Source: Phlebopus portentosus (lineage: Eukaryota; Basidiomycota; Agaricomycetes; Boletales; Boletinellaceae). From it: a stretch of DNA of 64,000 bases. The position numbers and the translations under genes are program-made. This document shows positions 26,306 to 48,152 of this stretch, piece by piece. The stretch is taken from the NCBI GenBank assembly GCA_037892935.1, contig JAYXKI010000011.1, positions 1,488,001 through 1,552,000 on the forward strand. The letters run 5' to 3'. The notes beneath the pieces were generated by a model that was given only the letters and a program-made list of their open reading frames with translations, made no database searches and had not been told where the DNA came from. Every line of letters begins with the position of its first letter. Position 1 is the stretch's first letter.

Positions 26306-26309
26306 CCGT

Positions 26310-26683: not shown

Positions 26684-27112
26684 TGAAACTCCTGTGCACT
26701 GTCTGATAGCTGAGGAGTGTCACAGTTCTTGGGGGCTGTTCGGTAAGATTAAAACGAGTGGAAAGAGAAGGGTGACTCTTGGGGGGGAAAACTAGAGAAG
26801 CGCTGATGCGTCGATCTGGGTTCCGGAGCGGTTCCGGAAGGGATGGAGGAGAAATGGGATTGAAGGCTGCTGGATGTATGCGAGGGGGGGGGATTGGATT
26901 AAAGGAGATAGGCGAAGAAGCAAGGCGGGAGAAGTCGAAGCAAGGGGGATTGGCGGTGGCGGTGCGAAGGTAATCGATGTCCTCACAGGTAATCCCTCGA
27001 TGGATTCGAACCCTGGAGGCAGAAGACGATGGGACGAAGCTTAGAGAAGGACTTCCCCTAAGCGCTGACGATTCGAAGGTGATCCCTTCGAGGATCCGAC
27101 ACGATATAACGG

Positions 27113-27149
27113 GTTACGATGAGTTACGACGAGTTTCGGTGGGTTACGA
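27113..27149 (+). promoter_or_regulatory. 10-bp-phased GTTNCGN array in LTR-B
   Basis: GTTACGA, GTTACGA, GTTTCGG and GTTACGA begin at 27113, 27123, 27133 and 27143. On the other strand GCGAAAC (27151) and GCGGAAC (27171) follow, spaced 20 bp apart. A related pair GTTCCGG lies at 26820 and 26831. Confidence 0.6.
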
Positions 27150-27477
27150 AGCGAAACGGAGCTATACGACGCGGAACGAAGCGATACGCAAGGGACTCAA
27201 GTGAGACCTTGCGTAGAGGCGTAGGGAGGAGAGATGAGGGTCTCTGACTTCAACACGGGTTGAACTGATCACACTGGGCTCGGGTACGACTGCAGAGCAG
27301 GAGACTCGAGGCGTATGAGACAGAACTATCATGTATTTGTGGGAGATAGAGTCGAGGAGAGTACAGGAAGAGTCGAATTGGTCTCGACTGTAGCTGAAGT
27401 GGGTTCAAGCCCGAGCTAAACTGTTTTCTGCTAAAACTCTCCGGGCTAAAACTGGGCTCCTACTACAAGTTGCTCGC

Positions 27478-27488
27478 CTATTTATAAC
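27478..27488 (-). promoter_or_regulatory. TATA-like box of LTR-B
   Basis: GTTATAAATAG on the minus (gag-pol sense) strand. Conserved at 37615-37625 and near 17250 in the decayed element III. Confidence 0.55.
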
Positions 27489-27977
27489 TTTGTCCGAACC
27501 TGAGCCATCGGAGCGTCAGGGAGCATAACGAAAGGAAATCGGAAGTGAAAATCATAAGGGAACGCACGGGAACAAGGTACGAGGTGAGCATATCTGGAAG
27601 GTGGCGAGATAATGACCATAGAGCATAATACGACATGTGAGCGCACACGGAATATTGAGCATAAGAATCATAAGGAACAAAACAAAATATGAACGCATAT
27701 GGGACTCAAAAGGGGAAAAGCCGGAGTGCGTCGCGTCGGGTCGAAACTTGGGAGGTGTCGGGGGCCGATTGCGGATCCTTCAATTTACCTCTCGTGCCTG
27801 GGTTTAGTAAGACGAGCTAGCTAAGTCAGCCTTTGTAAGTTTTCGACTGGGTGGCTCGAGCGTCTGAAGGTTCTTCCTACGCAGCGGTCGAGTGCGAGAG
27901 GCCACAGTAGTCCGTTCCACTTCAAATCGAATCGATCCGCACTGAGTTCCGCTGTTACGATGCTGATCACCGCGGAA

Positions 27978-27990
27978 CACGTGTCACGTG
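27978..27990. promoter_or_regulatory. Two adjacent CACGTG E-boxes
   Basis: CACGTGTCACGTG, two palindromic E-boxes one base apart, 36 bp before the LTR end and about 170 bp upstream of the antisense start codon. In the 5' LTR the second site is CACATG, and in element III the first is TACGTG. Possible host bHLH binding; not tested. Confidence 0.35.
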
Positions 27991-28160
27991 CGCGATCTCG
28001 GACCTAGCGTGTCGATGCTTCTTACATCTCCCGGTTTCTTGAAATCGTGACTGTCCGCAGTCACACTCCCAATAGGGTTAGACTCGGCGTCTCTAGATTC
28101 TTGACGCGTAAAACGCGGTTCGCGACGCGTTCCGTTCATCTATCCTCTCTTCTCTCCGTC

Positions 28161-29766
28161 ATGTCCCATCAACAGCAACAACAACAGCGACAACAGCAAC
28201 AACAGCAACAGCAGCAACAACAGCCGCTGTTCGACGAGATTCCTGTCTCAGCGGAGGGCTTCGTGTTCAGCGACACGTGGCTTTACGGTGTCGGAAACCA
28301 GGTCCAGGTCATCGAGCGTTTGCACGAGGACGTGGATCAGAGACGGTTCGTGAGGATGACCGTTGCGCAGTCCGTTGAGAGGGCGGAGGAAATGCGTGAG
28401 ATCCAGGTGCGCTTTCTTTTCTGTCTTCATCTATTCTCTTCGTTCCGTTCCGACTTCCTGAATTTCATAGACCGCGAGAAAGAGACTCGAGGACCTTCGG
28501 CCCGAGTGGGTGCCCATCGATTTGATGTGGCCGCCGTATGCCGCGCGTTTCTGGGCGGAAAGCGTGGTTGCGCTTGCGGATCGTTGCGCAACCCTCAACA
28601 TCAACTGCGACCAGCTCGATGCGCTCAAGGCTTCGTACCTCGAGGACGAAAAGCGTTCGAAGCCGGACACCGAAGTCTACGTTCAGCAATGGCGTGCGGG
28701 TTTGACCGGTCTAGAAGGGGCGATCGGTCGTCACCGCAATCTGCTACGGCCACTGGTTGGCCATTTCGACGAAAGGAAGGACGAGCTGGAGAATACGGTC
28801 ATGAAGATCGATCTGGACCAGGTGAGTGCTCATTCTCGCTTCTTCTTCTAATCTTGCTAACTGTTGAACTTCTAGCTATGGCGGATGTTTTGGGTCGGTC
28901 GTCGTCCTCCCGGCACGGAGATTGACGACGTCTGGACCGAATTCGGGTGGCTCGCTTGGGCGGAGATCCGGGGAATCCTCCTCTCAGCGCCGCTGAAGAG
29001 TCACGTCCATGAGGCCCTGCGGTGCTGGACTGCGTATGAGGAGAAGTGCTGCCCGTGCTCGGTCAAAGCCGCAGACGCACTCGTTGCGCTGCGTTCCGAC
29101 GCGCATCTCGGCGGATCGGGCCCCTTTTCGTCGGGTATATCCAAATTGACCGAGTCTGCCCTCAGGACGCTGCTGGGTCGTCAAGACTTGAGTCAGGTGG
29201 AGCGGGAGTCCGTCATCAGCGAGCTGGAAGATCGTGCGGACCGAGTTTTGTACTTGAGCGAGCTGGAGAAGATGGCAAGCGCGGTCAGGGTTCCGTCGCC
29301 GTCTTCGGATCGCGAGAGAGATGAGAGGCCCACGAAGCGGCCTCGGATTGTCGATTATTCGAGCAACGAGGAGTCGGTAGAGGGGAACTGCAACAACAGC
29401 AGCAGCAACATTCCTTCTGCTGCCAACGGTTTCTCTTCTGGGGGTCCGGCTGGAGATGACGACTTTGGGGCTTTTGACGAAGCGCCCCTCTTTCTTCCGG
29501 ACGGTGCTGTCAGCGAGAGCAACAGCAGCAACAGCAATCCTCCGGCTGCGAGCGAGTCTCCGAGTGCAGAACGAATGGAAGAGGATGAGGGAAGCCAAGG
29601 CGATGGCAGGGACGGTAGCAGCAGTAGCAGCAGCAGCAGCAATTCGTCTGCTGGTGGCTGGGTCGTGCATGATGAGGGGTGTGAGAGGTGCGCGAGGGCA
29701 GGCCGGGTCTGTGAGGGTTTCCCTGGGCAGGCCTGTGATTACTGCCGCACGAAGGCCAGGCGGTGA
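28161..29766 (+). CDS. Antisense zinc-cluster protein of element 1 (3 exons)
   Basis: Runs opposite to gag-pol. Exons 28161-28406, 28471-28821 and 28876-29766, with GT-AG introns of 64 and 54 bp, both phase 0; splicing gives 495 residues. The ATG follows the LTR by 135 bp and opens a Gln tract encoded by CAG/CAA. Residues about 25-330 are helical and globular with conserved Trp/Tyr (for example LWRMFWVGRRPPG), with no family recognised. Then come Ser/Asn/Glu-rich disordered stretches and a C-terminal zinc cluster, GCERCARAGRVCEGF...CDYC. Spacing of the first five Cys is C-X2-C-X6-C-X7-C-X2-C as in fungal Zn2Cys6 DNA-binding domains, but here it is C-terminal, while in host factors it is usually N-terminal. 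A TGA precedes the sixth Cys. Probably nuclear and DNA-binding (inference). Confidence 0.75.
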
Positions 29767-30069
29767 TGCGAGCTGGCTACGCACGGGAGGGCTGCGCGTC
29801 GCCTGCGGAACGAGCGGGTGGAACGCAAGACGCGCGAAGCTCGTCAGCGCGCAACGGCGCAGGTGCTGAGGATGCCGGTTGCGCCTGTCCTCGAGGTGAG
29901 TGACATCGAGGAGTTGGTCGCCGGGACGGACGAGAGCGCCGTCCATTTCCGGATGGCGGCCTTGGAGAGGCGCGCGCGCGTGTTGTTCCGCGCTGCGGAT
30001 CAACTGCGCAACCTAGCGGAGGAGATGCTGGCCGAGACCAGTGCGCTAGGAAGGGGTGGTAAGGGGTGA
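29767..30069 (+). pseudogene. In-frame continuation of the antisense gene after TGA: sixth Cys and helical tail
   Basis: Directly after the TGA at 29764-29766, in the same frame, comes Cys (the sixth zinc ligand), then CELATHGRAARR and a helical tail with SDIEELVAGTDESAVHFR, ending at TGA 30069. Element 2 has the homologous order CSLATKGRAVATKR in one frame with its zinc cluster, so this part belongs to the protein. The stop is best explained by CGA to TGA. Readthrough or a functional shorter form cannot be excluded. Confidence 0.65.
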
Positions 30070-30646
30070 GGAGGAAGAGTAAGGAGTAAGAGGCGTGAGG
30101 AGAGGGGGTAGAGTGCGTCAAAACGACGCTTTTCGTCTAGTGTCCCCTCATGGGACGAATAAAAAAAACAAAGAAAAAGAAGAAAAAGAAAAAAAATAAT
30201 TTGAACTTTTGTATATATATAGTTTTTGTGCGTTTTTGAATGTTATGAATTTTTGTTTGCGGTTTTGACGTTTGGGGTGAAGGTAAATAATAATGGAAGA
30301 ATGAGGATTGAGATATGAGAAAATGAGAGATTAGAGAAAATAAGCGGTGATTATTGAGTCGAAAGGACTGAGAGAAAAATAAGCTAGTTGCGCTGTTTTG
30401 CGCAGCGCTACGCCGGGTTGCAATTCGCAACTGAGCGCATGAAGGTGAACACGCGGTTGAACGCGTATCTCGGTTTGCGCGAACACTTTTCCGAGGGTCT
30501 AAATGCGGTTGAGCGCGAATAATTCGAAGGAAGGAAAAATCGAGAGGAAAATCGGGAGAGGAATGAAATGAAACGAATAATCGAAAGGATCTAATAGAAG
30601 AAGAATGTCAGTGGTTTGCATGGAGGGTATCAGAACTGAATGGTGT
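30070..30646. terminator. Convergent 3' region between antisense gene and pol (element 1)
   Basis: No gene. It contains A/G-rich runs with AATAAA-like and TATATATATAG segments (30160-30240), similar to 18520-18600 in element III and in mirror orientation to 45700-45770 in element 2. It probably holds the polyadenylation signals of both convergent transcripts. GTTGCGC-type motifs cluster at 30387-30431. Confidence 0.45.
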
Positions 30647-33600
30647 TTATAAGTTGAGGTTTTGAGATTCCGACTGGGCGTCGGAAACGTCGTCTTCTTC
30701 TGGTTCGATTGAGGGGTTGGCGTCGTCCTTGAGTTCGTCATCTGCTGCGTTTACGAGTTTAGTAACGGGTACAGAGAGATTCGAATGAGGAAAGTAAGGA
30801 ATCAGGCGAAACGCAGCTACTCGGATCTTCGAGACTGATCCGTCGAGTTCCGCAATGACATATGAGCCGGCCTTTGTTTTGCGTACTACCACGTAGGGTC
30901 CTAGGTATTGGGGCTTCGTCTTGCGATTAAGTTCCATTTTGATGCGCGTATTTCGCAACAATACGAGTCGTCCTGGCTGGAAATCGTAGTCTTTGATTTT
31001 GGCCTTGTTGATCTCTTCGAATTGTCGTGCGTATGCATGCCGGGCATCGGAAACTAGTCTGGCGATTCGATCCAGTTCCTCAGGGCGCTTCTGGAGCTGC
31101 TTCGCACGAGTTGCGATAAGTTCCGCAGTCGGAACAGGCGTATCGACCGGGGGGGCTAAGTACGTGGCTTCGGCGAGGTCGAAAGGTAGAATAGGCTCTA
31201 CTCCGTGTACCATGTAATACGGGGACATTCCGGTCGCCTTCTGGATGGTGATTCTTTCTGCCCAAAATACTGAGTAAGCTTGGTCGCTCCATCGTTTGTC
31301 ATTACCGTCTACAGCCTTTATCAGGGCTTCCTGCACATCGTAGTGGCGTCTTTCTACAATTCCATTGGCGCGAGAGTTGTATGCTGAGATGCGTATGTGA
31401 TTGATGTGATATCGATCCTTGAGGTAATCGAGTGCTGCGATGAACGGTTTCCCATTATCTGTTACGAGCTCGGGACAAGCGCCGTATCGGCAAAGGAGGT
31501 CTTGGAAAATGAACTGGGCTATCGCTTTGCCGGTTTCTTCGCGCAAGAGTCAAAATTCGGGGTAACCAGATAAAGCGCATCGGGCTTGTACGATGTACCG
31601 GTATCCTCCAGACTTCGGCATTACCTTGGTGTCGATGTGTATGCGCTGGAAAATCGACGGTATTGTTGGTACGACCGGAGGAATTAGAATGTTCTTCGTC
31701 TGGCGAACTTGGCACTCATGACAGGTGCGCACGTAGTATTTGACGTCTGGACCGAGGGTAGGCCACCAAAATCGTTCCAGGAGTCGAATTCGAACAGAGT
31801 ATACTCCCTTGTGGCCTAGATCGTCATGCGCTTGCTTTACGAGGTTCCATCTGCGTTCCGGTTCGATTACGACCTGGTGTCGTCCGTTCCGCACTTTCTT
31901 CCACAAACGTCCGTCTCTAGCGAAGAAATTTGCCGCGTACCTGATCAGTGCTGCATAGCCACGATTGTCTAACTGATCCGGTCGCTTCTGGCCGATCAAG
32001 AAGCTCTTGACGTCATCCAAGCGAGCGTCTTTCGGGTTAGCTTTCTCGGAGCTGGGAAACAAGGTCAAAGCGATGTCAGTCATCTTCGGGAAGTCAGAGT
32101 CGCCGTTTCTCTCCTGGCGTTTCCTATTCGATCTCTCGAGGTATCCTATTGATCCGAGAGTTGCTTGCACATTTCCAGGGCTCGATGGGAGTCGTTTCGC
32201 TTGGTTGCGCACACGTAAGTCTGTGCAATACGTCGTAACCGGGTTTTCGATGTAGAATCTATACGTGTCGTCTATCCACTCTTCGTATCCTTCGTCCGGA
32301 GGTGGATCTTTGGGTGCCGGGGGTCGTCGAGAAAGTCCGTCGGTGCATTTGAAGTCCGCCGCTGGGATGTGGCGAATCTCGAAGTCGAATAGAAGTATCC
32401 CGGCGATCCAGCGGTTGATCGTAGCATTTGGTTGTAAGTCCGGGTTGTTAATCATGCCTTTGATGTATGCTGCGTCCATTTCTACGACAAGCTTGCGCAC
32501 TCCGATGAGATATAGTCGCATGGCGTGTAACGTACGAAATAGTCCGTAAAGTTCGATTTTTGGTTGGGAGTATGTTGCTTGCGTAGCATTCCAGTTTATG
32601 GAACCGAAGCGATTAATCCTTCTTCGTCCATCTACGTGTTCTTGACCCAAATACCATCCTACTCCGATAATCGATGAATCCACCGCTAGTACGACTTCGA
32701 GTTCCGATTGATAGTCTATTGCGCATAGAGCTGGGCACCTAATGACCGCTTCCTTCAACTCGTCCATTGATTCCTGTTCTTCGTCTGTCCAATCGAAAAT
32801 GTTGTTCTTCCGAGTGAGTCGATTGAGGGGGCGTGCCATCTTGGCGAAATCCTTAATGAAAATTCGCAGGACTCCCACTGTTCCGAGGAATCCTTTGACT
32901 TCGGTTACCGATCGGCATGGCGGCCAGTCACTGACCTTCTGGACTTTCGATTCATCTGGCTCTCGTCCATAATATGTCAGTTTGTGTCCGAGAAATACGA
33001 TTGACTCAACGCCGATCTCCATTTTCTTTCCTGAGTACGTCCCTCCCACTGCCTTGACTCGCTGCAAAATTTGATTTACGTCGCATATATGCTCGTAAAT
33101 AAATCGCCTAATCCCTGGATTCTCTGGCAGGGTTTCGTAAGAGCCATCCGGGAGTTCGTAGCGCATTTTGGGACCTAATCCGGGCGAATCGTCTGCATAC
33201 GGATCGGTACAGTGCGGAATCTCGTCTTGTAGGATGAAAGCGACGTCATTGTGCATAATCTGAAGGGAATTCGTGTATCCCATCGGGAGAACCGTCATTC
33301 TGAACGTTCCCAAGGGAGTCTGAAATGTCGTGAGATCTCGAGAGCGTTCGTCTAGAACTCGCTGGTCAAAAGCCACATAGAAATCGAGGCTCGAATAACA
33401 ACTTCGTCCGCCGCAACGCTCCGCAATGGTCTCTATATTTGGCGGAACGGCTGAGTCTCGGACGGAAACGCCATTCATGTCTTGCAGGTCGAGTATAAAT
33501 TGAAGGGAGACTCCATCTTTCTTGACTAGGCAAAACCATCGTGATCGGTACGAGGAGTTAGACGGTTCAATGGCTCCATTCTTGATTTTCTCGCGAATCA

Positions 33601-34240
33601 GGTTGATGGTACGCTCGAGAATACCCGGAGGAATAGGTATGTTCTTGTGTACCCACGGTACATGCGGTACCGTCGGGATGCGAATCGGATCGAAGTATTG
33701 CGCATCGAAACTACCCCGTTCCGCTTCCGTCCACGCTAGTGCTCCTTCCTGCAGCATAAGTAGGTTAGCAACTAGCAGCCTTTCTTCGGGCCATAAGAAC
33801 TGATTCTCGTCAATCCTGAGGGCTTCAAACCGCTCCTTCGTCAGTCTGCCTATGGGCGTAAACGGTCTCGGTTTCTTTGGTATTTCGGGCAGTCCTTCGA
33901 GCGGGTTCGGATGCCTCCTTCGGACAATCCGAAATTCTTCTGGTAGTACCCCGGGGACGGGCCGTACTTTCTGAGCGACGCGTTTGTACATGAGTACCGC
34001 TGGGTCGTCGTCGTCCGGGGTCTCTAGAATACATGATCTATAAGGTCGATTTGAATAGTCAGTAGCGAAACGCATTGGGTCTTTCATCAGCTTCCGAAGC
34101 TGGTTACTAAATAGTGAGGTGAAAGTGTCGGAAACATTGATAGAATAGATAGAAAACGTATTGTTGAGGCTTGAACACGTATAATTGCCTACGTCTCGCT
34201 GACGTCTTAGTATCAGTTCCTCGACGTCTGCTGAAAACCC
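30647..34240 (-). pseudogene. Pol of element 1: RT, RNase H, integrase, with one premature TGA
   Basis: Entered by a -1 shift from gag at 34234-34240; the frame reads SADVEELI and on through MKDPMRF at 34087. Numbering from that Met: RT at about 140-350 with Asp 235 in SLDFYVAF and the catalytic YADD at 297-300; RNase H with AVDSSIIGVGWYLGQ, KIELYGLF, EMDAAYIKG and CTDGLSRR; integrase zinc finger HDDLGH then CHECQ; catalytic core with Asp in RIHIDTK, Asp in VTDNGKPF and Glu in NGIVERRHYD; then a GPY/F-type module (LGPYVVVRK). No chromodomain. One TGA at about 31550 lies between the first and second integrase Asp; element 2 has Arg there. Everything else is open, so this is one CGA-to-TGA change from complete. 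Confidence 0.88.
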
Positions 34241-36817
34241 TGTTGCGCAACATTGCGCAACACGTTCCGAATTCCAGTCGCGACCTTACTATGTCGATTC
34301 CTGTTGTTGGGGTCTGATAGCGTTATATGCTGGTCTCCCGAGGTATAATCCTTGGTTTCGCATTCGGTTACTGCGAAGAAGGGTCATCCGAGTAGCGCCT
34401 GGAACGGTGCCTGACGAACGACATGCACTTGCAGGGAAAGATCAATTCCGGCTATCGTAAACTTGGCGTTCGGGATTAATCCTACGGTGGCCGACTTCGC
34501 TGTGTCCGCCATCTCGATGGTCGTGCTCTGGTCCGGTGATAGGGGCACTTGAAGTTTTTCCCAAACGTCTTCCCTAATCAGACACACTGCTGCGCCTTGA
34601 TCGAGTACGCACTCCACTTTCATCGCGTCCTCCACTACGGCTGTAATCGTATGAAGGGGGAGAGTTGCTTCCGCGGTCACTCCCGATGTTCCGATGGACA
34701 GAATCGAGTCCTCAGGTTGTTGCGATGCGGTTCCGCACAGTTGTGTGGCGTAACTCGGCGATTCGACGAGATTCACATCGGCAGCGTTATATCTCTTTGC
34801 AGTAGTGAGTTCCTTTAGTTGCTTTCGTAGTTCGGGGGCGATCGATAACAGTTTCCTTTGGCTAAGCGTAATGCTCGTGTCGAGCATCCGAGTGAGCACG
34901 TTAGAGACAGCGTTAGAATCTTCAACGGGGACTACGTAGCGGTATTGGGGTTGGGGGTTCGAGGGTTTTCTAATATCATCCCGCTGCGGTGACGAACGTG
35001 AAACCGCCGAGGACTTAGGAATAGGGGGTGGCGACTGCTGCGCCTTCGAAGCCCCTCTTCCCGGCGGTCCCACCTTAGTCGGAATGACTACTCCGTCGAA
35101 CTTCTGCCTTTTACCAGTCGCCGCTTTCTTCTTTGCCTCGTTGAGCAAGATTTCTAAACGTTCCACTTCGTAATCGGTCTCTTCTGTCTGATCCTCGCCG
35201 ATTTCCTGGAGCATAGCTGATGCTATCGGCTCGGCCGGGGTTTCCGGGTGCTCGGCGACTTCGATGATGTTGACTGGATGTGACGGGTTCGGCTTTAGCA
35301 AGTTGTCAATTCGCTCCATCAGGTTCCGGCCCGAAACCCTACTTGATACGAAGGCTCCGTTTGGCATGACTACTCGTCCGTTCGAGTCACGTAGACACTT
35401 TCCGGCCTGGATATACTCGAGTACCATTGGGCACGACCTTATAAAGTGGCCGGGATCGCTGCAGAATGCACATCCGGGCGTGCGAGCCAATGGGGCCGGT
35501 TGCGGACCTGTTGCGATTCGAGGGCCCTGGCCTCTAGTGAGCGATTCCAGTGTTACCTGAAAACCCTTCAGCGTTTCCCAAACTTTACTCAAGTCCGTTT
35601 CTTCCTTCTTGACGGTCATTCCATGTCCTCCCGACGATGCGCTCATCGTTGCGCTCGTTCCGCCGCTCATCGGGTCGGATCCGATCTGATCGACTGCGGA
35701 TCCCGAAAGAATGTACATGGCTGCGTTTGCTACTTTCTCGGTGTCGTAGGGGTCGCCCCTCTCGTGGTCCGGGTCCTTGATTTCGAGCCTTTGCAGGATA
35801 TCCTTCCTAGTCTGGCCCGAAATGCCTCGAAGAAACGCGAATTTCGAGTCGTTCTCGGTAAGTTTGTTGCTGGCAACTAGATACCTGGCTCTGCGTAGGA
35901 ACTCGCGATGATAAGTGCCGAATTCATCTCTGATGTGAATACCTTTCTCGGCCCATTCGGCGATGAACTGCTCCAATTCGCCCCTAGAGTATCTCTTGCC
36001 GTCTGCCAAACTTGGATAAAGCTTCTTGACGGCCGTTTTGAAATTCCCGACGCTCGCAGGGGCGGCAGAAACTTCGGGTAGGGTCTCCCATACTTCTGCA
36101 ACGTCAGTCTTCGCATAGTACAGGTACCCACGTCTGATGGTAGTCGACGCATCCCAGTTGGAATCTATTGCGATCGCATCCATGTCGTCGAAGAAGCGGA
36201 ACAGTTCCTTCGGATCGGAACCGTCAAATACTGGTGCTCTCTTGTCACCTCGAAGAGGTGGTCTAACTGCAGCCATCTGGTTCGATATACGCTGCAACTG
36301 CTGATAATTGGTCTGAAGTTGGTTAAGGATCTGCAGGTTGCTTCCCAGTCCTTGGAGGTGGTGAGCGAGAGTCAATCTGCTTGGTTGCGACTGTTGCGCA
36401 AGCGGATCGACTTGGATCGCTTGATCGGAGGTTTGAGGCTGTCTGAGCCTAGCGGGGTCTGGGTAATCGAGTCGAACAGTGATATCCTCTGGCGACGAGG
36501 ATTCTTGCTCAGAGAATTCGGTAGGTAGATCGGTTTCTTGGAAACTAAAAGGAGACGATTCGGCCGACGGCTCGAACGATGGTAGGGTACTGGACTCGGT
36601 TAGAGGTGAAGGTTGAATTACTGAAGAACTTAGCGACGATGCTGTGGTGCTTCTAGCGCTTGCCCTCTGCCTAGGTGTCCGAGGTGTGACTTGGGGTAAG
36701 GCTTGGTGAACTACGGGGATACGGGCTGATTGGCTTCGGGTAGTCTGAGTACTACCTGGAGTTTGGTTACTCGTTTTGGACGAACAGTGAATTTCCCCCC
36801 TCGCCGGGGGCTCCACT
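34213..36817 (-). CDS. Gag-protease of element 1
   Basis: The frame is open from inside the LTR, through the primer site (VEPPARGEI) and to TGA 34213, with no ATG before about residue 180. A non-AUG start, or a start at the internal Met preceding AAVRPPLRG, is possible. Ser/Thr/Pro-rich N-terminus, then a capsid-like region (FDGSDPKELFRFFDD to the MYILSG area), a CCHC knuckle CAFCSDPGHFIRSC near 35460, a basic linker, and a retropepsin-like domain with VLDQGAAVCLI and the C-terminal QALLG. The active site reads D-Q-G. A TGA at 34384-34386 falls 57 codons before the natural stop; element 2 has Arg, so it is another CGA-to-TGA change. Apart from that the frame is intact. Confidence 0.83.
34234..34240 (-). 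promoter_or_regulatory. Probable -1 ribosomal frameshift site G_GGT_TTT (gag to pol)
   Basis: Heptamer GGGTTTT read in the gag frame as G GGT TTT, about 20 bp before the gag stop. A -1 slip gives SADVEELI, continuous with pol. Element 2 has the same heptamer at the same place and the same outcome (SASVEELI). Confidence 0.68.
34242..34261 (-). promoter_or_regulatory. Tandem TTGCGCAACA motif in the gag end of element 1
   Basis: GTTGCGCAACATTGCGCAAC: two palindromic TTGCGCAAC units 10 bp apart, immediately upstream of the frameshift heptamer. Related pairs of CGCAAC occur at 35496-35520, 36383-36405 and 32194-32210. They could be protein-binding sites or RNA structure near the frameshift. Confidence 0.4.
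36799..36815 (-). other. Primer binding site of element 1
   Basis: TGGAGCCCCCGGCGAGG on the minus strand, two bases after the 5' LTR end (GGAGTTTCA). It starts with TGG, as expected for pairing with the CCA end of a tRNA. I cannot name the tRNA. Element 2 has the same site with two substitutions. Confidence 0.6.
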
Positions 36818-38163
36818 TGAAACTCCTGTGCACTGTCTGATAGCTGAGGAGTGTCACAGTTCTTGGGGGCTGTTCGGTAAGATTAAAACGAGTGGAAAGA
36901 GAAGGGTGACTCTTGGGGGGGAAAACTAGAGAAGCGCTGATGTGTCGATCTGGGTTCCGGAGCGGTTCCGGAAGGGATGGAGGAGAAATGGGATTGAAGG
37001 CTGCTGGATGTATGCGAGGGGGGGGGGGGATTGGATTAAAGGAGATAGGCGAAGAAGCAAGGCGGGAGAAGTCGAAGCAAGGGGGATTGGCGGTGGCGGT
37101 GCGAAGGTAATCGATGTCCTCACAGGTAATCCCTCGATGGATTCGAACCCTGGAGGCGGAAGACGATGGGACGAAGCTTAGAGAAGGACTTCCCCTAAGC
37201 GCTGATGATTCGAAGGTGATCCCTTCGAGGATCCGACACGATATAACGGGTTACGATGAGTTACGACGAGTTTCGGTGGGTTACGAAGCGAAACGGAGCT
37301 ATACGACGCGGAACGAAGCGATACGCAAGGGACTCAAGTGAGACCTTGCGTAGAGGCGTAGGGAGGAGAGATGAGGGTCTCTGACTTCAACACAGGTTGA
37401 ACTGATCACACTGGGCTCGGGTACGACTGCAGAGCAGGAGACTCGAGGCGTATGAGACAGAACTATCGTGTATTTGTGGGAGATAGAGTCGAGGAGAGTA
37501 CAGGAAGAGTCGAATTGGTCTCGACTGTAGCTGAAGTGGGTTCAAGCCCGAGCTAAACTGTTTTCTGCTAAAACTCTCCGGGCTAAAACTGGGCTCCTAC
37601 TACAAGTTGCTCGCCTATTTATAACTTTGTCCGAACCTGAGCCATCGGAGCGTCAGGGAGCATAACGAAAGGAAATCGGAAGTGAAAATCATAAGGGAAC
37701 GCACGGGAACAAGGTACGAGGTGAGCATATCTGGAAGGTGGCGAGATAATGACCATAGAGCATAATACGACATGTGAGCGCACACGGAATATTGAGCATA
37801 AGAATCATAAGGAACAAAACAAAATATGAACGCATATGGGACTCAAAAGGGGAAAAGCCGGAGTGCGTCGCGTCGGGTCGAAACTTGGGAGGTGTCGGGG
37901 GCCGATTGCAGATCCTTCAATTTACCTCTCGTGCCTGGGTTTAGTAAGATGAGCTAGCTAAGTCAGCCTTTGTAAGTTTTCGACTGGGTGGCTCGAGCGT
38001 CCGAAGGTTCTTCCTACGCAGCGGTTGAGTGCGAGAGGCCACAGTAGTCCGTTCCACTTCAAATCGAATCGATCCGCACTGAGTTCCGCTGTTACGATGC
38101 TGATCACCGCGGAACACGTGTCACATGCGCGATCTCGGACCTAGCGTGTCGATGCTTCTTACA
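36818..38163 (-). mobile_element. 5' LTR-B of element 1
   Basis: Direct repeat of 26684-28026. TATA-like box (minus) at 37615-37625; phased array GTTACGA/GTTTCGG at 37250, 37260, 37270 and 37280. Followed by TSD CCGG (38164-38167). Confidence 0.92.
37250..37286 (+). promoter_or_regulatory. 10-bp-phased GTTNCGN array in 5' LTR-B
   Basis: Four units exactly 10 bp apart, identical to the array in the 3' LTR. It lies about 330 bp downstream, in pol sense, of the TATA-like box at 37615-37625. Confidence 0.58.
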
Positions 38164-39422
38164 CCGGTTCCAAAGGTTTCGCACATATTCTGACCTTTCT
38201 ATATGCGTCCCCTTTAATCCATTATGCTCTCGTTCCAGACATGCTTAGTATTGTTTCTTTTGACCTATGTGTCCCTTAAACCATTCATATGCACTCCTCT
38301 CCTTTGTAGATAGCAATATGCATTCCCTTTTCTTTATGACGTAGGTTCTCTGACCGCTGGGAGGCTCAGTCTTGGACATTTAGTATAAATATAGCACGAC
38401 TCTCATAGTAGAGGGGGAGCTTAGTTGGAGCTTAGTGGGAGCTTAGCTTGCAGTTCTCACATCGTCTCAAAGTCCCTCGACCTCTAGTCTACTTGTTCGT
38501 AGTGGACTCTCTCGTCTCTAAAGTCTAATATACGATATTTCGTGTTCTGTACAGTCGATTGGTGATCTCTCTTCGCAGCAGAGCCGTTTGTACGTTCGTA
38601 TAGTTTGCTGTGATTGTATAAAGGCTCCTCTTACTTCTCTCACCCGAATTGAAACCTCCTTACGTGTTCCGAACCATTTTGCCCGGTTTCGCTCGTAACC
38701 CAGTTACTCTGCGTGCCACTCGCATTCGGTCTTGCAACACCTTCTCCTCTCCAGTGTCATCGGGAAAGGACACCATATCACCCCTTTCCTCCTGACATTC
38801 CTCTCTCCGCTTTCTCAAGTCATTGCCCGGCGTTATTCCACATCGTTTCGATCGGAAACAGTCGGTTCCATCGTCCCACACATATCCTTTGATTCTCTCA
38901 GTCCCCTTCCATCATCGTTTTGCACCTCTATCCCTCGCATCACATTTCGATACACTCAGCAATTGTTCTTCGTCCATCGTATTGCGTTTCGAATTGTTAT
39001 ACCGCATTCCAACACTTTAGACTATGAGTGAGATCAGCTGCGGTCGCTTTCCAGTGGGTTAGCACAGTCGATTAGTCACGTTCGGGTTGGTGGTTCAACT
39101 AGCATAGCTTAGTTAGTTTAGTTCTTGTGCCTTGGGTTAGTTAGCTTTAGTCCAGAGCTCGCAGCTGAGCCGGAGAGTCAATTTAGCCTTTGCACCGCCA
39201 CCATCGATCTCGGGAGAAGACTACCCTTGGAATTCTTCCTCAAGTGCTTCCCTCAAATCCCCGGTTCTCACTAAGCCCTTCCATTGTATATCCCTATTTC
39301 CCTCCATTCCTTTGTGCCCTTAGCTCAGGTGTAATTCTCTGCTGACCGCTTGAAAGTATTCTAGGGCAGCCCCTCGAACTATACACTCCCTGTCCGGCAT
39401 CAGAACGTCCACAGGAGTTTCA
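38164..39422 (+). mobile_element. 5' LTR-A of element 2, second part
   Basis: Resumes after the CCGG duplication at the point where 26683 stopped and ends GGAGTTTCA at 39422, next to the primer site. TATA-like box TATAAATATAG at 38394-38404 (plus), mirrored by 48706-48716 in the 3' LTR. Confidence 0.9.
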
Positions 39423-39424
39423 AG

Positions 39425-39442
39425 TGGAGCCCCCAGCAAGGG
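39425..39442 (+). other. Primer binding site of element 2
   Basis: TGGAGCCCCCAGCAAGGG, two bases after the LTR, matching the element 1 site except for transitions. Shared primer use by two LTR families whose LTRs differ. Confidence 0.58.
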
Positions 39443-40624
39443 GGATTTTACTGTCCAACCATTATGAATACCCCGCCAAATTCGTCTAGCAGACGAGTTA
39501 CACATAGCCAATCCGCTCGAGTCCCTGTAGAACATCAGGTTTTGCCGCCGACTCAAAGGCCGAGGATTGTCAATCGCAACTTATGTTCCACTGCGGAAAA
39601 TGTGGAACACAGCAAAACACCCTTGTGACAATCTGTTAGCGCCATTCCTTCCAACATCAATTCCCTAGATCATTCCCCATCTACCATCGCCAATTCAGAA
39701 CTCCCCAACCTCTCATCCGTGCCAGCTTCCACCCCAGGATCACCGAACAGACCAGCTAGCCCGCCTACCAATTACCAACTACCTACCGGAACTCAACAGA
39801 TCTTAGCCAGCAACACAGCGATAATAGCTCGTCTGTCTGCTAATGCTAACGTATTACAACAACTTACAAATTGACAAACTGCAATGGTGTACCAACCGCC
39901 CTCGCGTGAGGACAAATGTGCCCCAACGTTTGACGGCTCAGAACCAAAGAAACTCCCTAGGTTCTTCGAAGACGTTGCAGAAATCGCAAGACAGGCCGTG
40001 TGAAATGATAGAGATCACGTCCGAAAGTTCTTGTACTATGCGAAGACCGACGTCGCAGAACTTTGGGAGACTACCGACGAGATTAACGACCCGAACCCTG
40101 ATGTGGAGACGGTGAAGAGAGAGATTATAGCTCTATACCCGAGTCTCACGGCAGGGAAACGCTACTCCAAGGGAGAACTGGAGCATTTGGTCGTAGAACG
40201 GGCAAAGAAAGGGATCAAGAACTGAGAAGACCTAGGCGAATATCATCGAGAATTCGTCAGGCGCTCTAAGTATCTTATAACAAACGGAAAGATCTTGGAG
40301 TCCCAAGCTGATGAGATGTTCCTGATGGGAATTACAGGAGACCTTAGAGAGGTGCTCATTTGTCATATCGAGATTAAGCTGCCAGACCACGATTCGTCTA
40401 CACCTTACAAGATTAAGGACGTGCTCAAACATTCAAATTTCGTGCTGGGAGGAAAGATTGTGGGCAGTTTCGGCAGTAACTTTCCACCCCCAGCTACCGG
40501 AGAAGCTTCGACAAGTATCATGAAGAAGGAAGAAGTGGATTTGGCCAAGGTATTGGATACGTTGAAGAGTTTTCAGGTTAGGCTCGACGCCCTGAGCAAG
40601 GGGAACGTTCTGCATCGACCAGGG

Positions 40625-40641
40625 GCGGAACACAGCGAAAC
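40625..40641 (+). promoter_or_regulatory. Internal NCGNAAC pair in the gag linker of element 2
   Basis: GCGGAAC (40625) and GCGAAAC (40635), 10 bp apart. In element 1 the same linker carries CGCAAC units about 11 bp apart (35496-35520), so motif type and spacing are kept while the protein sequence is not. Confidence 0.42.
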
Positions 40642-41907
40642 TCCGTGAAACCCAGTTTGCAACTTCTGTGGCAAAGCAGGACACTATATTCAATCATGTA
40701 TGAAGGTTCTTGAGTACATCCAAGCCGGAAAGTGTGTTAGGAGCCCAGATGGAAGGATTGTGTTGCCGAACAGCGGTCTCATTACAAGGTCACTACTGGG
40801 GAACAATCTCAAAGAACAAATTGATAGCTTTCATGCTAAAGCTCTGGCAACGCACACAGTAGGGATGGTCGAGTCGGTCACACCCGCATATAGCCATCAA
40901 GCTGGTCCAGCATACATATATAGTCACAACAAAGAAAATCAGGACAAGCAGGAAAATTACGACATCGAACGTTTGGAGATTTTGATTAACGAGGCGAAGA
41001 AGAAGGCAGCTGGTGGACGAAGAACGAAGCCCGATGGCGTAGAGATCCCTAGAGTTCAGCCTCATAAGAAGGTGCAGGCGAAATCACAGCCCGCGCCACC
41101 GAGTGGCGTGCGGCCCTCGACAAGGTCACTCCAGTCACCGCAGCAGGACGACATTACCAGGAAATCACAACCCCAGTATAAATATGTCATACCAATAGAA
41201 GACTCAAGCGCAGTCTCCAACGTTCTGACTCGTACCCTCGATACCCCTATCACCATCAGCCAACGTGAACTCCTCTCAATCGCCCCGGACGTTAGGAAAC
41301 AGATGAAGGAGCTGACGACAGCGAAGAGATACAACGCAGCTGAAGTCAAATATGGTGAGGTCGTGAATGATTCACTTACGTTACAAGTTGGGCGTTTCAC
41401 ATCGGAACAAGTTGAAACAGGCAAAATGCTTTTGACAGAAGAAATACTGGCGCTCAGTGGACAAGGCGTTGCCGCAGAGGCATCCATGCCCCTCAGGACC
41501 GTTAGCGCGTTGATTGAAGACACTCTGGAAGTCGAATGCATGCTTGACCAGGGAGCCGTAGTGTGTCTGCTCCGCGAAGACGTATGGGAGAAGCTTCAGA
41601 TACCCCTATCCCCTGACAAAGGAATGATCCTCGAGACAGCAGACGCAGCTAGGTCATCTACTATTGGCATGATCTCTAACGCGAAGTTCATGATAGCCGG
41701 GATTGACATTTCGCTCCAAGTCCAAGTCGTTCTGAACACTCCATTCCAGGCTTTGTTGGGGAGACCGTTTTTCACTATTATGGAGTGCGAAATGAAGGAT
41801 TACACATCAGGTGACCAACATATCACCTTAACGGACCCGAACGATTGCAGAAAGCAAAGCAAAATGGCCACCGGAATTCGAACGATCACGCAAGGACCAC
41901 TTCCAAA

Positions 41908-41914
41908 GGGTTTT
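41908..41914 (+). promoter_or_regulatory. Probable -1 ribosomal frameshift site G_GGT_TTT (element 2)
   Basis: GGGTTTT in gag frame, 18 bp before the gag stop TGA (41933-41935). The -1 frame continues SASVEELIERN into pol. Same position and heptamer as element 1 although the flanks differ. Confidence 0.68.
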
Positions 41915-44900
41915 CCGCAAGCGTCGAGGAACTGATTGAGAGAAATCGGAGAGACGAAAATAGTAGTGACCAATTGCCGGTTCAGGTATTTTCTTATGAT
42001 TTCGAATTTATTTCACACAAAATCCCATCTCTTTTCAACCAACGATTGCCCTATTTATTAAACCAAAATTGCTATACTACTGATAAAGAAGAACGGTCAT
42101 ATTGTTCATGTGTTTTAGAAACCCCAGAAGAAGAGGACGTGGCAGTAATGGCTTACAAACGAGTAGCGCAGAAAGTCAGGCCGATCCCGGGAGTCCTTCC
42201 AGAAGAATACAGGATCGTACGAAGGCAGCATCCGGATCCGTTGAGAGGGATGCCCGAGATGCCAGTTGTACCGAAGCCGTTCGAACCCATGGGTCGTGTA
42301 ACCGCCAAAAGGATGGAAGCACTGAAGATCAACGAGAATACCTTTCTGTAGCCGGCGGAGAGGTTATTAGTGAAGAATCTGATTATGTTGCAGGAAGAAG
42401 CATTAGCATGGACCGAATCCGAATGCGGAACACTCGATCTGACGTATTTCGACCCGATACGCATTTCCACGATACCGCATATACCGTGGCAGCACAAGAG
42501 CATTCCAATTCCCCCGGGAATTCATGACAAGGCCCTCGAACTTATTCGAGAGAAGATTCGCAATGGGGTTATTGAACCGTCGAATTTGTCGTATCGATCC
42601 AGATGGTTTTGCTTGGTAAAGAAAGACAAAGAAATGTTGCGATCCATCATCGACTTGCAGGATCTTAATGCGGTTACGGTTAAGGACTCGGCAGTACCAA
42701 TGAACATCGAAACGATCGCGGAGAGCAGTGGTGGACGAGCTTGTTACACAGAGTTGGATTTATTCATGGCATTTGACCAAAGAAAGCTGGACGAACAATC
42801 TCGAGATCTTACTACATTCCAGACACCCTTGGGAACATTTCAAATGACGGTTCTACCAATGGGATACACCAATTCCTTGCAGATTATGCATAACGATGTG
42901 GCCTTTATGCTTCAGGACGAGATTCTGCACGTTACGAACCCTTTCGCAGACAATGCGCCCGGTTTAGGTCCGAAATTGCGATACGAGCTACCAGACGGTT
43001 CATACAAGACAATACCAGAAAACTCCGAGATTCGTCGTTTCGTGTATGAGCATATATGCGATGTGAACAGGATTTTGCAGCGAATGAAGGCCGTAGGAGG
43101 AACGTTTTCAGGGAAGAAGTTGGTTCCATGTGTGGAGTCAGCCGTATTCGTTGGACACAAGTTGACGTACCAGAGATGCAAGCCAGACGATTCAAAAGTA
43201 CAGAAGATACGAGATTGGCCGCCATGTAGAACGCTGACAGAAGTCAGAGGATTTCTAGAAACGGTAGGAGTCCTTCGGATTTTTGTCAGAGATTATTTGA
43301 AACTCGCTCGCCCATTATACCGCATGACAAGGAAGAACCAGATTTTTGCGTGGACAGACGAAGAACAGAACGCAATGGACGAACTAAAGCAAGCCGTTAT
43401 TCTTTGCCCCGTGCTGTGTGCAATCGACTACGTGTCGGATAATGAAGTAATATTGGTGGTAGACTCATCTATTATTGGAGTTGGTTGGTATTTAGGACAA
43501 GAGCACTCGGATGGAAGGCGAAGGATCAATCGTTTCAGTTCTATTAACTGGAATCAGACCTAGGCATCGTATTCACAGCCGAAAATTGAGTTATATGGCT
43601 TATTTTAAGCATTGCACATGATGCGACTGTATCTCATCGGAGTCCGGAATCTAGTAGTCGAAATGGATGCAGCATACATCAAGGGGATGATCAACAATCC
43701 CGACCTGCAGCCCAATGCGACCATTAACAGATGGATCGCAGGTATCCTTCTCTTCAGTTTCAAGCTCAGACACATCCCAGCAGCCAATTTCCAGTGTACC
43801 GATGGATTATCCAGATGAAGAGCAGCTGAAGAAGACCCCCCTCCAGATGAAACGTACGAAGACTAGGTAGACGAAACGTACGGTTTTGCGATAGAAGAGC
43901 CGGTTTCAACATACCAAGTAGCGCAACAGAGCGGAACACCTAGCGAAACAGCGACCGAGAACCTATTTCCTTCTACGGAATCCACAAAAAGGAAGGATAG
44001 CCGCTTAGATGATGTCACGAAGCTAATCACGCATCTCACACGCCCAGACAATCTTAGCGATAGTGGCTATGCGAAGCTAATCAGGTACGCAGCTGACTTC
44101 TTCATTAAGGGAGGCCGTCTGTGGAGAAAAGCGCGGAATGGCCGGCACCAAGTCGTAATAGAAGCGAAACGCAGATGGAACCTAGTTAAGCAAGCTCACG
44201 ATGATCTAGGACACAAAGGAATTTTCTGCACTCGAATGCGACTGCTGGAGAGATTTTGGTGGCCGTCCTTAGGACAGGATGTGAAGTATTTTGTGCGCAC
44301 CTGTCATGAGTGCCAGATACACCAGACGAAGAATATTCTTATCCCACCGAACATACCAGAGGTAGCCCCTCTGTTCTAACGCATCCATATTGACTCGAAG
44401 GTCATGCTGAAATCGAGTGGATTCCGATATATCGTGCATGTGCGTTGTTCGTTAACCGCGTATCCCAAATTTAGACTTCTTCGTGAAGAAACTGGTAAGA
44501 CCGTAGGCCAGTTTATCTTCCAGAACCTTTTGTGTCAATATGGAGCATGCCCCGAACTCGTTACCGATAACGGCACACCATTCGTTGCTGCGCTAAATTA
44601 CTTGAAGACGCGGTATCACATCAACCACATTCAGATTTTGTCATACAACTCACGCGCAAATAGATTAGTCGAACACAGACATTTCGACGTACAGGAAGCC
44701 TTGATTAAAGCTGCAGATGGTAATGACAAGCGTTGGAGTGATCACGCTGACTCGGTATTTTGGGCAGAAAGAATCACGATCAACAGAGCAACAGAAATGT
44801 CCCCGTATTACATGGCCCATGGAGTCGAAGCAGTTTTGCCTTTCGACCTCGCAGAAGCAACATACCTGGCACCGCCGCTCGATTCGCCAGTTATGACGTC

Positions 44901-45357
44901 GGAACTCATCATAATACGTGCAAAACAACTCCAGAAATGTCCAGAAGAGTTGGATCGCATTGCGAAACTCGTCATGAATGCAAGGCATGCATACACGAAG
45001 CAGTTCACCGAGGTGGAGAAGCATAGAATCAAGGACTACAACTTTCAGCCAGGAAGCCTTGTACTCTTGCGAAACATGCGTATCAAGATGGAACTCAATT
45101 GTAAAATGAAACCCCACTATTTAGGCCCCTACGTGGTAGTTCGACGCACCCAAGGCGGTTCGTATATCGTCGCCGAACTCAATGGAGCGGTTTCAAAACT
45201 CCAAATAGCAGTGTTTCGCCTGGTTCTGTACTTCTCACATTCGCATTTGACTGTTCCGGTGACCAAGCTCATTGGATCAGACGAAGATGATGACATACCC
45301 AAAATAGAAGATTCGCCAGAGAAATTCCCTGACGATGAGTCCCAAAATTCTGATTAA
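41915..45357 (+). pseudogene. Pol of element 2: RT, RNase H, integrase with many stops
   Basis: Collinear with pol of element 1. The RT (42370-43180) has TELDLFMAF and, at the catalytic pair, FADN in place of YADD, so the second Asp is lost. RNase H has VVDSSIIGVGWYLGQ. Integrase has the HHCC finger (about 44200-44320), Asp in RIHIDSK, VTDNGTPF and LVEHRHFD. Stops include TAG 42349 (element 1: Trp), TAG 43561 (Gln), TAA near 43607, several TGA near 43815 and TAA near 44378. The last 317 codons (44404-45357) are open and end at TAA. Most stops are C-to-T or G-to-A. Not functional. Confidence 0.85.
43921..43949 (+). promoter_or_regulatory. Internal motif triplet in the pol linker of element 2
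   Basis: GCGCAAC (43921), GCGGAAC (43931) and GCGAAAC (43943) in the linker between RNase H and integrase. Element 1 has GCGCAAC/GCGAAAC 10 bp apart in the same linker (32194-32210, minus strand). Confidence 0.42.
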
Positions 45358-45803
45358 ATCATTCATTTCCCTTCATATATGCTCCTTACTTATTTCCGAT
45401 TCTCTCTCTCTCCTCTGATCAATTCTAATCTTCCAATTCTCCTTCTATAGTTTCGTCTCTGCTAGCATGATCCACAATAGGATCTAACACGTGTACTTTT
45501 ACTTAATACGCAGTTCCGCACGGTTTTGCTGTTCAAAACAGCGGAACGACGGCGAAACACCTCATTTCACTTCGTATCAGTTTCCTTTCATCCTATTCCT
45601 TGAATTCTTTGATCTATTCTTCTAGCCTTCACTCAGTCTCGCTCGATCGCACAAAAATTCACAAAAACCGAAACAAAATTGTATAAATTAACTATAAAAA
45701 CAACTATGTACAGTACAAGTTCTTTTTCTTTTTCTTTTGTCCTTTTCTTTTTCTATTTTACAAAAGTCCAACCAGGACATAGAGCATACGCAATAATTAT
45801 ACT
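45358..45803. terminator. Convergent 3' region of element 2
   Basis: No gene. It contains CT-rich runs at 45715-45765 (A/G-rich on the antisense-gene strand), corresponding to the A-rich region of element 1. The paired motif GCGGAAC (45541)/GCGAAAC (45552), with GTTCCGC at 45513, is also here. Confidence 0.45.
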
Positions 45804-47987
45804 CTATTCCCGAGCCCTACCTTTCCCCTTCGACTGACAAACCCTCTCCACTTCCCCTCTATCTTCCTCTTCCTCGTCTTCACCTTCCCCCATCTTCACC
45901 CCAGCTAACTCAAGCAGCAGATGACGATCCGCGTGCGCCTGCACTACGAGGACACTGAATTTGTTCAGCATCCGGGACAGGACCTTGTCCCAGTGATCCA
46001 TCCGTGCCAGCACGAACTGCAGCTCGGATTCCCCGACCTCCCGCTGCAGAGCTTCATGCTCGACGCGACCACCCACTGATCTGGCCGCCAGAGCTGTGAC
46101 TTTCCAGCGTTTTGCTTTCCGATCATGCACCTTCCGAGCTGCCTTACGCTTCGTGGCTACAGCCCTGCCCTTCGTGGCTAGACTACAGCCCTTCGCCTGC
46201 TTTAAGCACAGAGCACAGGTCCTCTGCGGAAGACCCACGCAATCACGGCCACGCTTCTGGCACTGGTCGCACGGAACCTGATGACGAACGCGCCCATCGC
46301 TCAATCATTCGTCACCATCGTCGTCGTCATTGTCGTTGTCGTCATTATTGTTGTCGTCACCACCAGAACCACCACCATTAGCCGAAATCCTAGAAGGACC
46401 AGCCTCAGGTTGAGAAGACGCTCGTCGTGCCAGAGAAACGCATCTCGCTTGCGTTTTGACAGTTTCGTGCGGAACAGCAGCAGTACCGCTATTGTTGTTG
46501 TTGTTGTTGTTGCTGTTGTTGTTGTTGCTCGCGGTATTGAGAGCCTGAATCTCTTCAAGGCTGGTGTCCATCTTAAACGGCTCATTCGCCTCCATTCCTA
46601 CATCACCGATATCCATTCTGCCGTCGCCTGGACTCATGATAACAGAGTCTTCTCCCCAATGACCAGGAGGAGGACTCTCAGGACTTTCCTGAATCGCAGG
46701 AGTCTCCTCGTCTAAGTCCACCACTTGCCGAACACCACGAATGCGGCGAGTCCCTGCATCCAGTCGTCGTCGCATGTTGGCCTCGATTTTGGCAGCCATC
46801 TGGGAGATTTTAGCGCGTTGAGCAGCGCGTTCCTCTTCTTCACGTCTTTCACTCTCGTGAAGCTCAATCTCGAGCATTGTGGGTTCGAGTGAGGTTAAGA
46901 GTGTAGAATGGCTAGCCCCTTCCAAACATTCCGCTCCGGTTTCAAGCATTTCAACTGGTTCCGCGACCTCTCCGTCCTCAATCGTTTCGCCAGTTTCAAT
47001 CTGAAGAGGAGCGGAATCAACCTCCATTGGACTATCGACGTCCTGAGGCAGCATTTGATGTTGCTGCTGTTGTTGTTGTTGTGTTTCAGATTCCTGAGCA
47101 CGAACGAGTTGATAGAGCCGATGACGAAGAATGGAATAGCTGTAGTATTCCCAGAGGAGCCGGACTGTTCTCAATTTCACCTTGTCGATGCGAAGGATGT
47201 GCCCTGCACGAAGGTGTCATTGCTCGATATCCTCCCAATATTCGAACGCTTGCTGTAGGAAGGATTAGATGGAGATGATAGACAAGAAGAAGTACCTATG
47301 TGACTCCAGACAGCTTCGTCTCGCGTGTAGTCTGTGTTGCCGATGAACCTCGCTGTTTGTTGGAACTTGGAGCTCTCCATTCTCACATTCTCGAGAGCCT
47401 TTTCGATGTCAGGGTGTGGTTTCGGGAACATTGGAGGGAACAATTTGCCCAAGAAGAACCCACGAGTCGAATCGAACGAGGCAGGATGGAATGGAACCCT
47501 GCGTCTGCGGAAGAAAGCTCATCGTTTAGTCTCCATCCTGGCATAAAATTCCCGTTGATCATAGTACAGCGTCCGTAGGAGAGCATCCGTGTCGCAGTAG
47601 TTGGAGTACGCCGTCTCCGACCAGACTTCTTTTGTTCCTTTAGAATGGACTTGCTCCAATGCTTCCTTCCGTGCCTGTCAAATTTTGTTAACAAAAATTC
47701 TTGATTAGAGTGCGCGATTTACGCACCGTGGTTGCCTTCCACCCATCCATCAAAGATTCTATCACCGGATTCGTCAACCACCGTACTGTCATCGAACCTG
47801 TAGGCGCGATCCATTCGACCGGTTTTGTCTTATCTGGCAGAATTACCGTCGTGACGCCATGGTCTAGTTCATCCATTGCTGACCTGGCCAAGGCGACGTC
47901 TGCCTTGAATTTTGCGACCGCTGCCTTCCAGTCGTCATCGGAGTTGATGGGTCCCAAGAGCGCAATGATTTCTTCAGAAGTGAACAT
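45804..47987 (-). pseudogene. Antisense zinc-cluster gene of element 2
   Basis: Start ATG 47987, 128 bp inside the 3' LTR, opposite to gag-pol. Exon 1 47987-47727, intron 47726-47675 (GTGCGT...GACAG, 52 bp), exon 2 to 47296, intron with a GTACTT donor ending near 47250, then exon 3 to 45804. Intron 1 lies before ARK in both this gene and the element 1 gene, which supports homology although the middle parts differ greatly. The protein has a Gln tract, Glu-rich helices, poly-Asn and Asp runs, then the complete zinc cluster PCDQCQKRGRDCVGL...CALCLKQAKGC (C-X2-C-X6-C-X7-C-X2-C-X6-C), a basic segment and an acidic tail. TGA stops in exon 2, at about 47216 and at 46305; the last lies just before the cluster. 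To keep the frame, intron 2 must use an AAG acceptor, so its splicing is uncertain. Confidence 0.72.
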
Positions 47988-48115: not shown

Positions 48116-48152
48116 TGAAGAGTAAGTCTGAAGCTTGGGAACGTACGGAGTC

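Follow-up and report, generated by a model that had tools for sequence, protein, structure and literature searches.

In a 64,000-nucleotide stretch of Phlebopus portentosus DNA (assembly GCA_037892935.1, contig JAYXKI010000011.1, positions 1,488,001 to 1,552,000 of the forward strand; hereafter the window), a Ty3/Gypsy retrotransposon, element A, carries a spliced gene on the strand opposite to gag-pol, between pol and the 3′ long terminal repeat (LTR). Judging from its copies, this is a genuine gene, and intact copies encode a C-terminal cluster of six cysteines. Two further families, B and D, have a gene of the same layout, which suggests that these elements make their own regulator. Searches of the own genome covered 38.4 Mb in 23 contigs, with the window on contig C11.

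Element A occupies 26684..38163 with its sense strand on minus. The antisense gene runs on the plus strand from 28161 to 30069, between the LTR boundary at 28026 and the end of pol at 30647, and is broken in the window copy. Exon 1 (28161..28406, ATG at 28161) encodes a glutamine tract and the start of a predicted helical core, exon 2 (28471..28821) continues this core, and exon 3 (28876..30069) adds its remainder, a basic patch, an acidic stretch, the cysteine cluster and C-terminal helices. A three-exon gene opposite gag-pol had been proposed here in an earlier reading of the sequence alone (the sequence-only reading), and the copies bear it out: both introns (28407-28470 and 28822-28875, plus strand) have GT...AG ends in the window copy and in 18/18 other aligned copies, and the splice boundaries 28406/28471 and 28821/28876 are kept in all of them. 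These 18 copies come from 20 fetched stretches, two diverged, piecewise-matching ones having been left out. When exons 1 and 2 were searched together with both introns, 42 genome matches were obtained, 21 covering the whole query including introns and the rest shortened, and no intron-less copy was found among them. All 19 sequences spanning the introns, window included, retain both. Such retention is as expected if the sense RNA alone is reverse-copied; the earlier argument that introns on the antisense strand survive retrotransposition thus gains support from A and also from family D (9/9 loci).

Spliced in silico, 13 of the 18 other copies have neither stop nor frameshift and five are interrupted, which makes the frame better than a chance one. 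The window copy itself does not read through to 30069, as had been assumed: an uninterrupted frame was rejected there, given a TGA at 29764, between the fifth and sixth cysteines, and a one-base insertion at 30053 that shifts the frame near its end. The insertion occurs in 0/18 other copies and the TGA is absent from unshifted copies. Exon 3 as a query gave 41 genome matches, and 20 of these, counting the window copy, cover 295 or more of its 296 residues; in most other copies this exon has 400-401 open residues, running beyond the position of 30053. Closest to the product of A is P0001 from Sanghuangporus sanghuang, annotated as hypothetical and 93% identical; its spliced gene model omits 23 residues of exon 1 as defined here. 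Sanghuangporus is a genus of Hymenochaetales with medicinal use (PMC10803629). A mirror open reading frame (ORF) on the minus strand (28984-30012) is stop-free in 14/19 sequences; it lies over a GC-rich exon, has no other support and was taken as a shadow.

The gene accompanies its elements almost constantly. By positional joining of integrase matches with A, B and D exon matches, an opposite-strand zinc exon was found within 4.5 kb downstream in 124 of 131 scored integrase rows and was lacking in 7, which corresponds to the position, strand and presence in most copies by which an aORF-3R is recognized. These rows are the 131 scored among 423 integrase candidates, and some represent two halves of one copy, such that they are not element counts. 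Binned by identity, the linkage is 27/30 for A, 65/69 for B and 32/32 for D; in the B bin, 61 rows have B-type exons and 4 have A-type exons, the latter looking like decayed A. The gene is more widespread than the sequence-only reading stated: that reading missed the gene of element B in the same window, and family D also has one.

In element B (38164..49743, gag-pol on plus), the gene lies on the minus strand at 45804..47987, with exons 47987-47727, 47674-47300 and 47252-45804 separated by introns of 52 and 47 bases; intact copies encode about 730 residues. The window copy is broken by several stops, and its intron 2 has an altered 5′ splice site. Of the fetched B copies, five could be spliced in silico and four of these are stop-free (one with an altered splice site). 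Gene models of the B family, in part shorter, are available from S. sanghuang, S. baumii and S. weigelae (P0002-P0006). The family is abundant, with 62 of 91 rows covering at least 162 of the 166 residues of the B query.

Family D, a third lineage recognized in the search with the A integrase (49-53% integrase identity), has its antisense gene at loci L039 and L040, with the cluster CERCIGRGEVCTRRPPALLCQACRVSHHRC. Genome matches number 33 for its cluster exon and 30 for its coiled-coil exon; NCBIfam matches to the latter were taken as low complexity. Four introns (60, 54, 63 and 52 bases) are common to all nine D loci examined. The gene is open from start to stop in 2/9 and interrupted in 7/9, mostly at G runs in exons 1 and 5. 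These runs vary in length (L039, L040, L042-L048) and shift the frame in most of the nine copies; part of this may stem from assembly error, or the slippage may be real. D also has, on the sense strand and between its antisense gene and 3′ LTR, an ORF of 453 residues (L039 1257-2615, minus), for which Pfam gave nothing at E up to 1.

The products of all three families have a C-terminal cysteine cluster. In A it lies at 29680..29769 (plus) and reads C-X2-C-X6-C-X7-C-X2-C-X7-C in copies reading through it; the C-terminal cluster described earlier is correct for those copies and not for the window copy, where a stop separates the fifth and sixth cysteines. In B it lies at 46185..46271 (minus) and reads C-X2-C-X6-C-X7-C-X2-C-X6-C. 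The spacings are 2-6-7-2-7 in A, 2-6-7-2-6 in B and 2-6-8-2-6 in D, and a six-row alignment of the module from the three families shows no variation at the six cysteines or at one proline and one glutamate. Zn2Cys6 clusters (PF00172) follow C-X2-C-X6-C-X5..12-C-X2-C-X6..8-C, and all three clusters fall within this spacing. Zn_clus was the sole Pfam family reported for the three 64-residue cluster fragments (A, B and D), and its profile follows the whole cluster in the B fragment only; Fungal_trans was not among the Pfam families listed. Basic patches, KRRK behind the cluster in B, TKRPR in A and PAKRAR in D, are candidate nuclear signals. With glutamine-rich stretches (A and B), acidic stretches and basic patches, the composition resembles that of transcription factors. 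The glutamine tract and acidic low-complexity stretch of the sequence-only reading were confirmed, and its helical core (exons 1 and 2) is predicted only at low confidence. In low-confidence models, every CxxC is followed by a helix, and long helices lie behind the cluster. P0003 has a TFIIA match that stays under the cut-off (E 3e-7); it covers the glutamine-rich part and was taken as low complexity. A sequence search of the PDB gave best E-values of 0.019 for P0001, over the glutamine tract, and 0.63 for P0005.

A and B share 75% identity in reverse transcriptase (RT), 72% in integrase and 53% in gag, while their antisense proteins share 29% over 129 C-terminal residues with no significant match elsewhere (B being the S. 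weigelae protein), or 31% over 131 residues with the B copy of this genome. The antisense gene diverges far faster than pol, with its cysteines retained. The LTRs of A and B also have no BLAST match at E 1e-10 except for 88 bases comprising the LTR end and the primer-binding site. Joint fast change of gene and LTR is what co-divergence of a binding protein with its sites would produce; other causes may fit as well. Within A, variants should mostly predate insertion when shared and mostly postdate it when found once. Those present in at least two copies have a nonsynonymous-to-synonymous ratio (N/S) of 0.94 (30/32), where their own mutation spectrum predicts 1.58, and singletons have 1.68 (94/56) against 1.58. 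Since the shared ratio is below expectation and the singleton ratio near it, the frame seems to have been under constraint while lineages were active and to have drifted once copies had inserted. Pairwise pN/pS, uncorrected for mutation bias, is 0.37 overall; the core has 0.20, and the cluster and C-terminus have 0.87-0.89.

Two features of the noncoding DNA were examined. The LTR of A contains a ten-base phased array (27113..27192), and ten-base periodicity is strong in this LTR, with z-scores of 3.3 against other lags and 4.2 against local shuffles; it is weaker in the B LTR (2.5 and 2.7) and absent in pol. At 27001-27260, around the array, non-CpG transitions (0.0167) and other changes (0.0109) are above those of neighboring LTR parts, and the array itself therefore differs between copies. 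An 18-base inverted repeat, GTGACTG-TCCG-CAGTCAC, lies at 28047..28064 in A, 20 bases to the inside of the 3′ LTR, before the antisense ATG is reached; its counterpart in B (48078..48095) is equally 20 bases inside of the LTR and, in the window copy, has a single-base difference in one arm. The arms are GTGACTG/CAGTCAC in A, GTGACCG/CGGTCAC in B and ATGACTG/CAGTCAT in a gag-only family, C, such that their changes are paired, and the spacer is TCCG throughout. Allowing up to 2 mismatches, the repeat occurs at 103 places genome-wide (some of them inspected), against 0 for a reversed control. Folding of three 74-base stretches gave z-scores of -0.67, -0.82 and -2.92, with no clear support for an RNA hairpin.

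Change among copies of A falls mainly on CpG. Transitions at CpG amount to 948 of 32854 site-copies (0.029), against 0.004-0.006 at CpA, CpC and CpT, and the rate is similar across LTR, antisense gene, pol and gag (0.022-0.037). Such CpG-biased change throughout A makes it likely that the host methylates the cytosines of the whole element, as we would conclude with fair probability from this pattern, and anti-silencing in active copies may be compatible with it.

Taken together, these observations lead us to propose an element-encoded, nuclear, sequence-specific DNA-binding regulator, a reading that we hold at about an even chance. The gene in A, B and D was probably inherited from a common ancestor. 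The antisense mRNA of A and B would start close to the 3′ LTR or a short way inside it, and that of D deeper within the element; it would be spliced by the host and would then be translated into a nuclear protein. The protein would dimerize through the helices adjoining the cluster and bind family-specific sites in the noncoding DNA of its own family, most likely in the LTR; DNA binding is here inferred from the cysteine cluster. Once bound, it would control gag-pol transcription as an activator, a copy-number brake or an anti-silencer, and we lean slightly toward a trans-acting activator or anti-silencer over a repressor. A more specific version, by analogy with the VANC proteins of plants, is doubtful though worth stating: each family would own a private, fast-changing anti-silencer or activator, with LTR sites diverging alongside it and its own copies alone freed from methylation, and placement on the antisense strand would make an intron-bearing gene compatible with reverse transcription.

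Some results weigh against this proposal. The cluster fragments score 8.1, 11.7 and 13.7 bits with Zn_clus (E 3.9, 0.3 and 0.068) under a cut-off of 21, and for A and D only half a cluster aligns, out of register: the first half of the A cluster is matched to the profile's second half, and D shows the reverse; the full A and B proteins have no Zn_clus match in Pfam. The name Zn2Cys6 given by the sequence-only reading rests on spacing, which agrees, and not on the profile, whose cut-off is not reached. AlphaFold models of the A and B proteins have a mean predicted local distance difference test score of 40 (about 60 in the cluster region of A and 70 in that of B), and for the B model Foldseek and VIA-align returned no informative fold match. 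The N/S deficit is small when all A variants are pooled (1.41 against 1.67 expected), and the zinc and C-terminal part has an excess (2.11 against 1.62). A and D, with 52% identity in integrase, share only a short antisense match (38% over 34 residues, E 0.005), and B and D proteins have no significant BLAST match. With matches this weak or absent, the case for a shared origin of the D gene is built chiefly on its location, its strand and the pattern of cysteines. Ten-base periodicity is absent from the 1128 D LTR bases examined (z 0.4 and 0.3), and so the phased arrays reported earlier stand for A and B and fail in the examined part of the D LTR, although D has the gene. The inverted repeat is present in C, which lacks the antisense gene, and near the D LTR in L039 a perfect repeat of this form (7-base arms, 4-base spacer) was not found; its role as an operator of the antisense gene was set aside on these grounds. 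Because C lacks the gene, the repeat may have another role: it may belong to the polypurine tract and plus-strand priming, or be a site through which A or B proteins serve C. Finally, CpG change reveals no lastingly protected zone in A, whether in LTR, gene, pol or gag, although this is a weak test.

The product could instead be an accessory replication factor, acting in RNA packaging or in nuclear import of the preintegration complex, whose cluster contacts nucleic acid without any control of transcription. Position and strand suit any accessory gene, family-wide linkage would be expected for it too, and the inverted repeat, exactly 20 bases inside of the LTR in A, B and C and beside the polypurine tract, suggests signals linked to replication. 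We nevertheless regard this explanation as unlikely: gag has its own weak zinc-knuckle match (below cut-off), proteins of the late cycle are expected from the sense RNA, and the acidic and glutamine-rich stretches, together with Zn2Cys6-like spacing, resemble a transcription factor. A shade less probable to us, and unlikely as well, is a brake in which the antisense transcript or protein lowers copy number, either through double-stranded RNA feeding host RNA interference or through repression of the sense promoter. The sense RNA would be complementary at its 3′ end to a spliced antisense transcript, and double-stranded RNA is among the roles proposed for such transcripts (PMC7264820). A pure RNA role, however, needs no kept frame, cysteines or introns in three families, and the abundance of B noted above is not what a brake would lead one to expect.

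Most improbable of all, in our judgment, is that the gene is a captured host gene or a passenger of no use to its element, or that A/B and D made separate captures. Its introns and transcription-factor look would fit a captured gene, as would the failure of BLAST to align the B and D products, and no relatives outside Sanghuangporus emerged from protein searches with A and B, among the best 7994 candidates scored for A and with no D protein queried; distant relatives may exist. Set against this are the presence in three families whose integrases are as far apart as 52% (A and D), the near-constant linkage, and the kept frame and cysteines; no host locus is evident among the genome hits, not every one of which was inspected. 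We set the passenger aside on linkage and on conservation in three families, with the unalignable B and D products as a reserve. The regulator remains the reading that we prefer.

As to the elements themselves, A satisfies the usual description of a Ty3/Gypsy element. Its 3′ LTR (26684..28026) and 5′ LTR (36818..38163), both on minus, are each other's partners in self-BLAST at 99.0% identity within the window, with TG...CA termini, and the target-site duplication CCGG (26680-26683 / 38164-38167) flanks both ends of the element. The gag, protease, RT, RNase H and integrase region (30647..36882, minus; ORF list and Pfam) is split over three ORFs in the window copy (36882-34384, 34285-31550 and 31549-30647), the first starting within the edge of the 5′ LTR. 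Pfam matches are above cut-off for RT_RNaseH and Integrase_H2C2 and below it for RVT_1, protease and zinc knuckle, and the last frame gave only a weak SH3 match; over the gag and pol frames, the order is protease–RT–RNase H–integrase, as in Ty3/Gypsy. Element A inserted into the 5′ LTR of B, duplicating CCGG and splitting this LTR into 26310-26683 and 38164-39421; the 3′ LTR of B is at 48116-49743. A scan of 26000-39000 with Rfam gave 0 matches.

Other elements were observed alongside. At 16558-18649, an A-like LTR relic is fused to the 3′ part of the antisense gene, the middle being absent between two CAG-rich tracts. Another Ty3 element of the window offers a contrast: a chromodomain-like sequence in it (recognized by eye) ends within about 100 bases of the edge of an LTR-like repeat near 22031, with no space for an antisense gene of this kind. 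Family C (L036, L037 and L038, on C4 and C12) is at least about 3.8 kb long and has only a gag-like frame with a weak zinc-knuckle match; its LTRs of at least 770 bases are 99.87% identical, pol would not fit between them, and the antisense zinc gene is lacking. C is probably a non-autonomous family that was active recently.

Both plants and Botrytis are known to have antisense ORFs in the interval from pol to the 3′ LTR, of open function (PMC7264820, PMC11963269). Closest in kind to the genes of A, B and D are those of the Retand/Tat elements (Grande gene23, RIRE2, Retand), in which an antisense ORF carries TRP28 (PF04195) (PMC7264820), and for Retand, DNA binding and regulation have been proposed from prediction (PMC11963269). 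The genes described here differ in their six-cysteine cluster in place of TRP28 (no Pfam match to PF04195 at E up to 1 in P0001, P0003, P0004 and P0005), in their two or four introns and in their fungal host. Neither PMC7264820 nor PMC11963269 uses the word intron in its main text. Among fungi, Boty/BcGypsy1 of Botrytis cinerea is likewise a Gypsy element with an extra antisense gene, brtn (PMC8365987, citing Zhao et al. 2011); its host is an ascomycete, no mention of a zinc cluster or of introns was noticed there, and the likeness is one of description only. No zinc-cluster antisense gene in a fungal Ty3 element appeared in the titles or abstract starts of the literature matches listed.

With fungal Zn2Cys6 (Gal4-type) factors (PF00172), the proteins of A, B and D share cysteine spacing, a helical region by the cluster and glutamine-rich and acidic stretches; they differ in that the cluster is C-terminal and profile scores are below cut-off. 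Two further systems have been compared. HBZ is a bZIP protein with a spliced transcript, and VANDAL elements are plant DNA transposons, VANC being a protein of a different type. The likeness to HBZ of human T-cell leukemia virus type 1, a nuclear protein whose antisense gene has its promoter in the 3′ LTR, is one of layout only (PMC7264820, PMC11963269). The likeness to VANC of Arabidopsis VANDAL, an element-encoded sequence-specific protein with targets in fast-diverging tandem repeats, is one of logic only (PMC10398659). Set beside these systems, the genes of A, B and D bring together an antisense ORF with a candidate DNA-binding module of known type, introns that indicate a gene made for host splicing, three families in one genome and many copies, and hence offer an opening to ask directly whether such genes are element-encoded transcription regulators.
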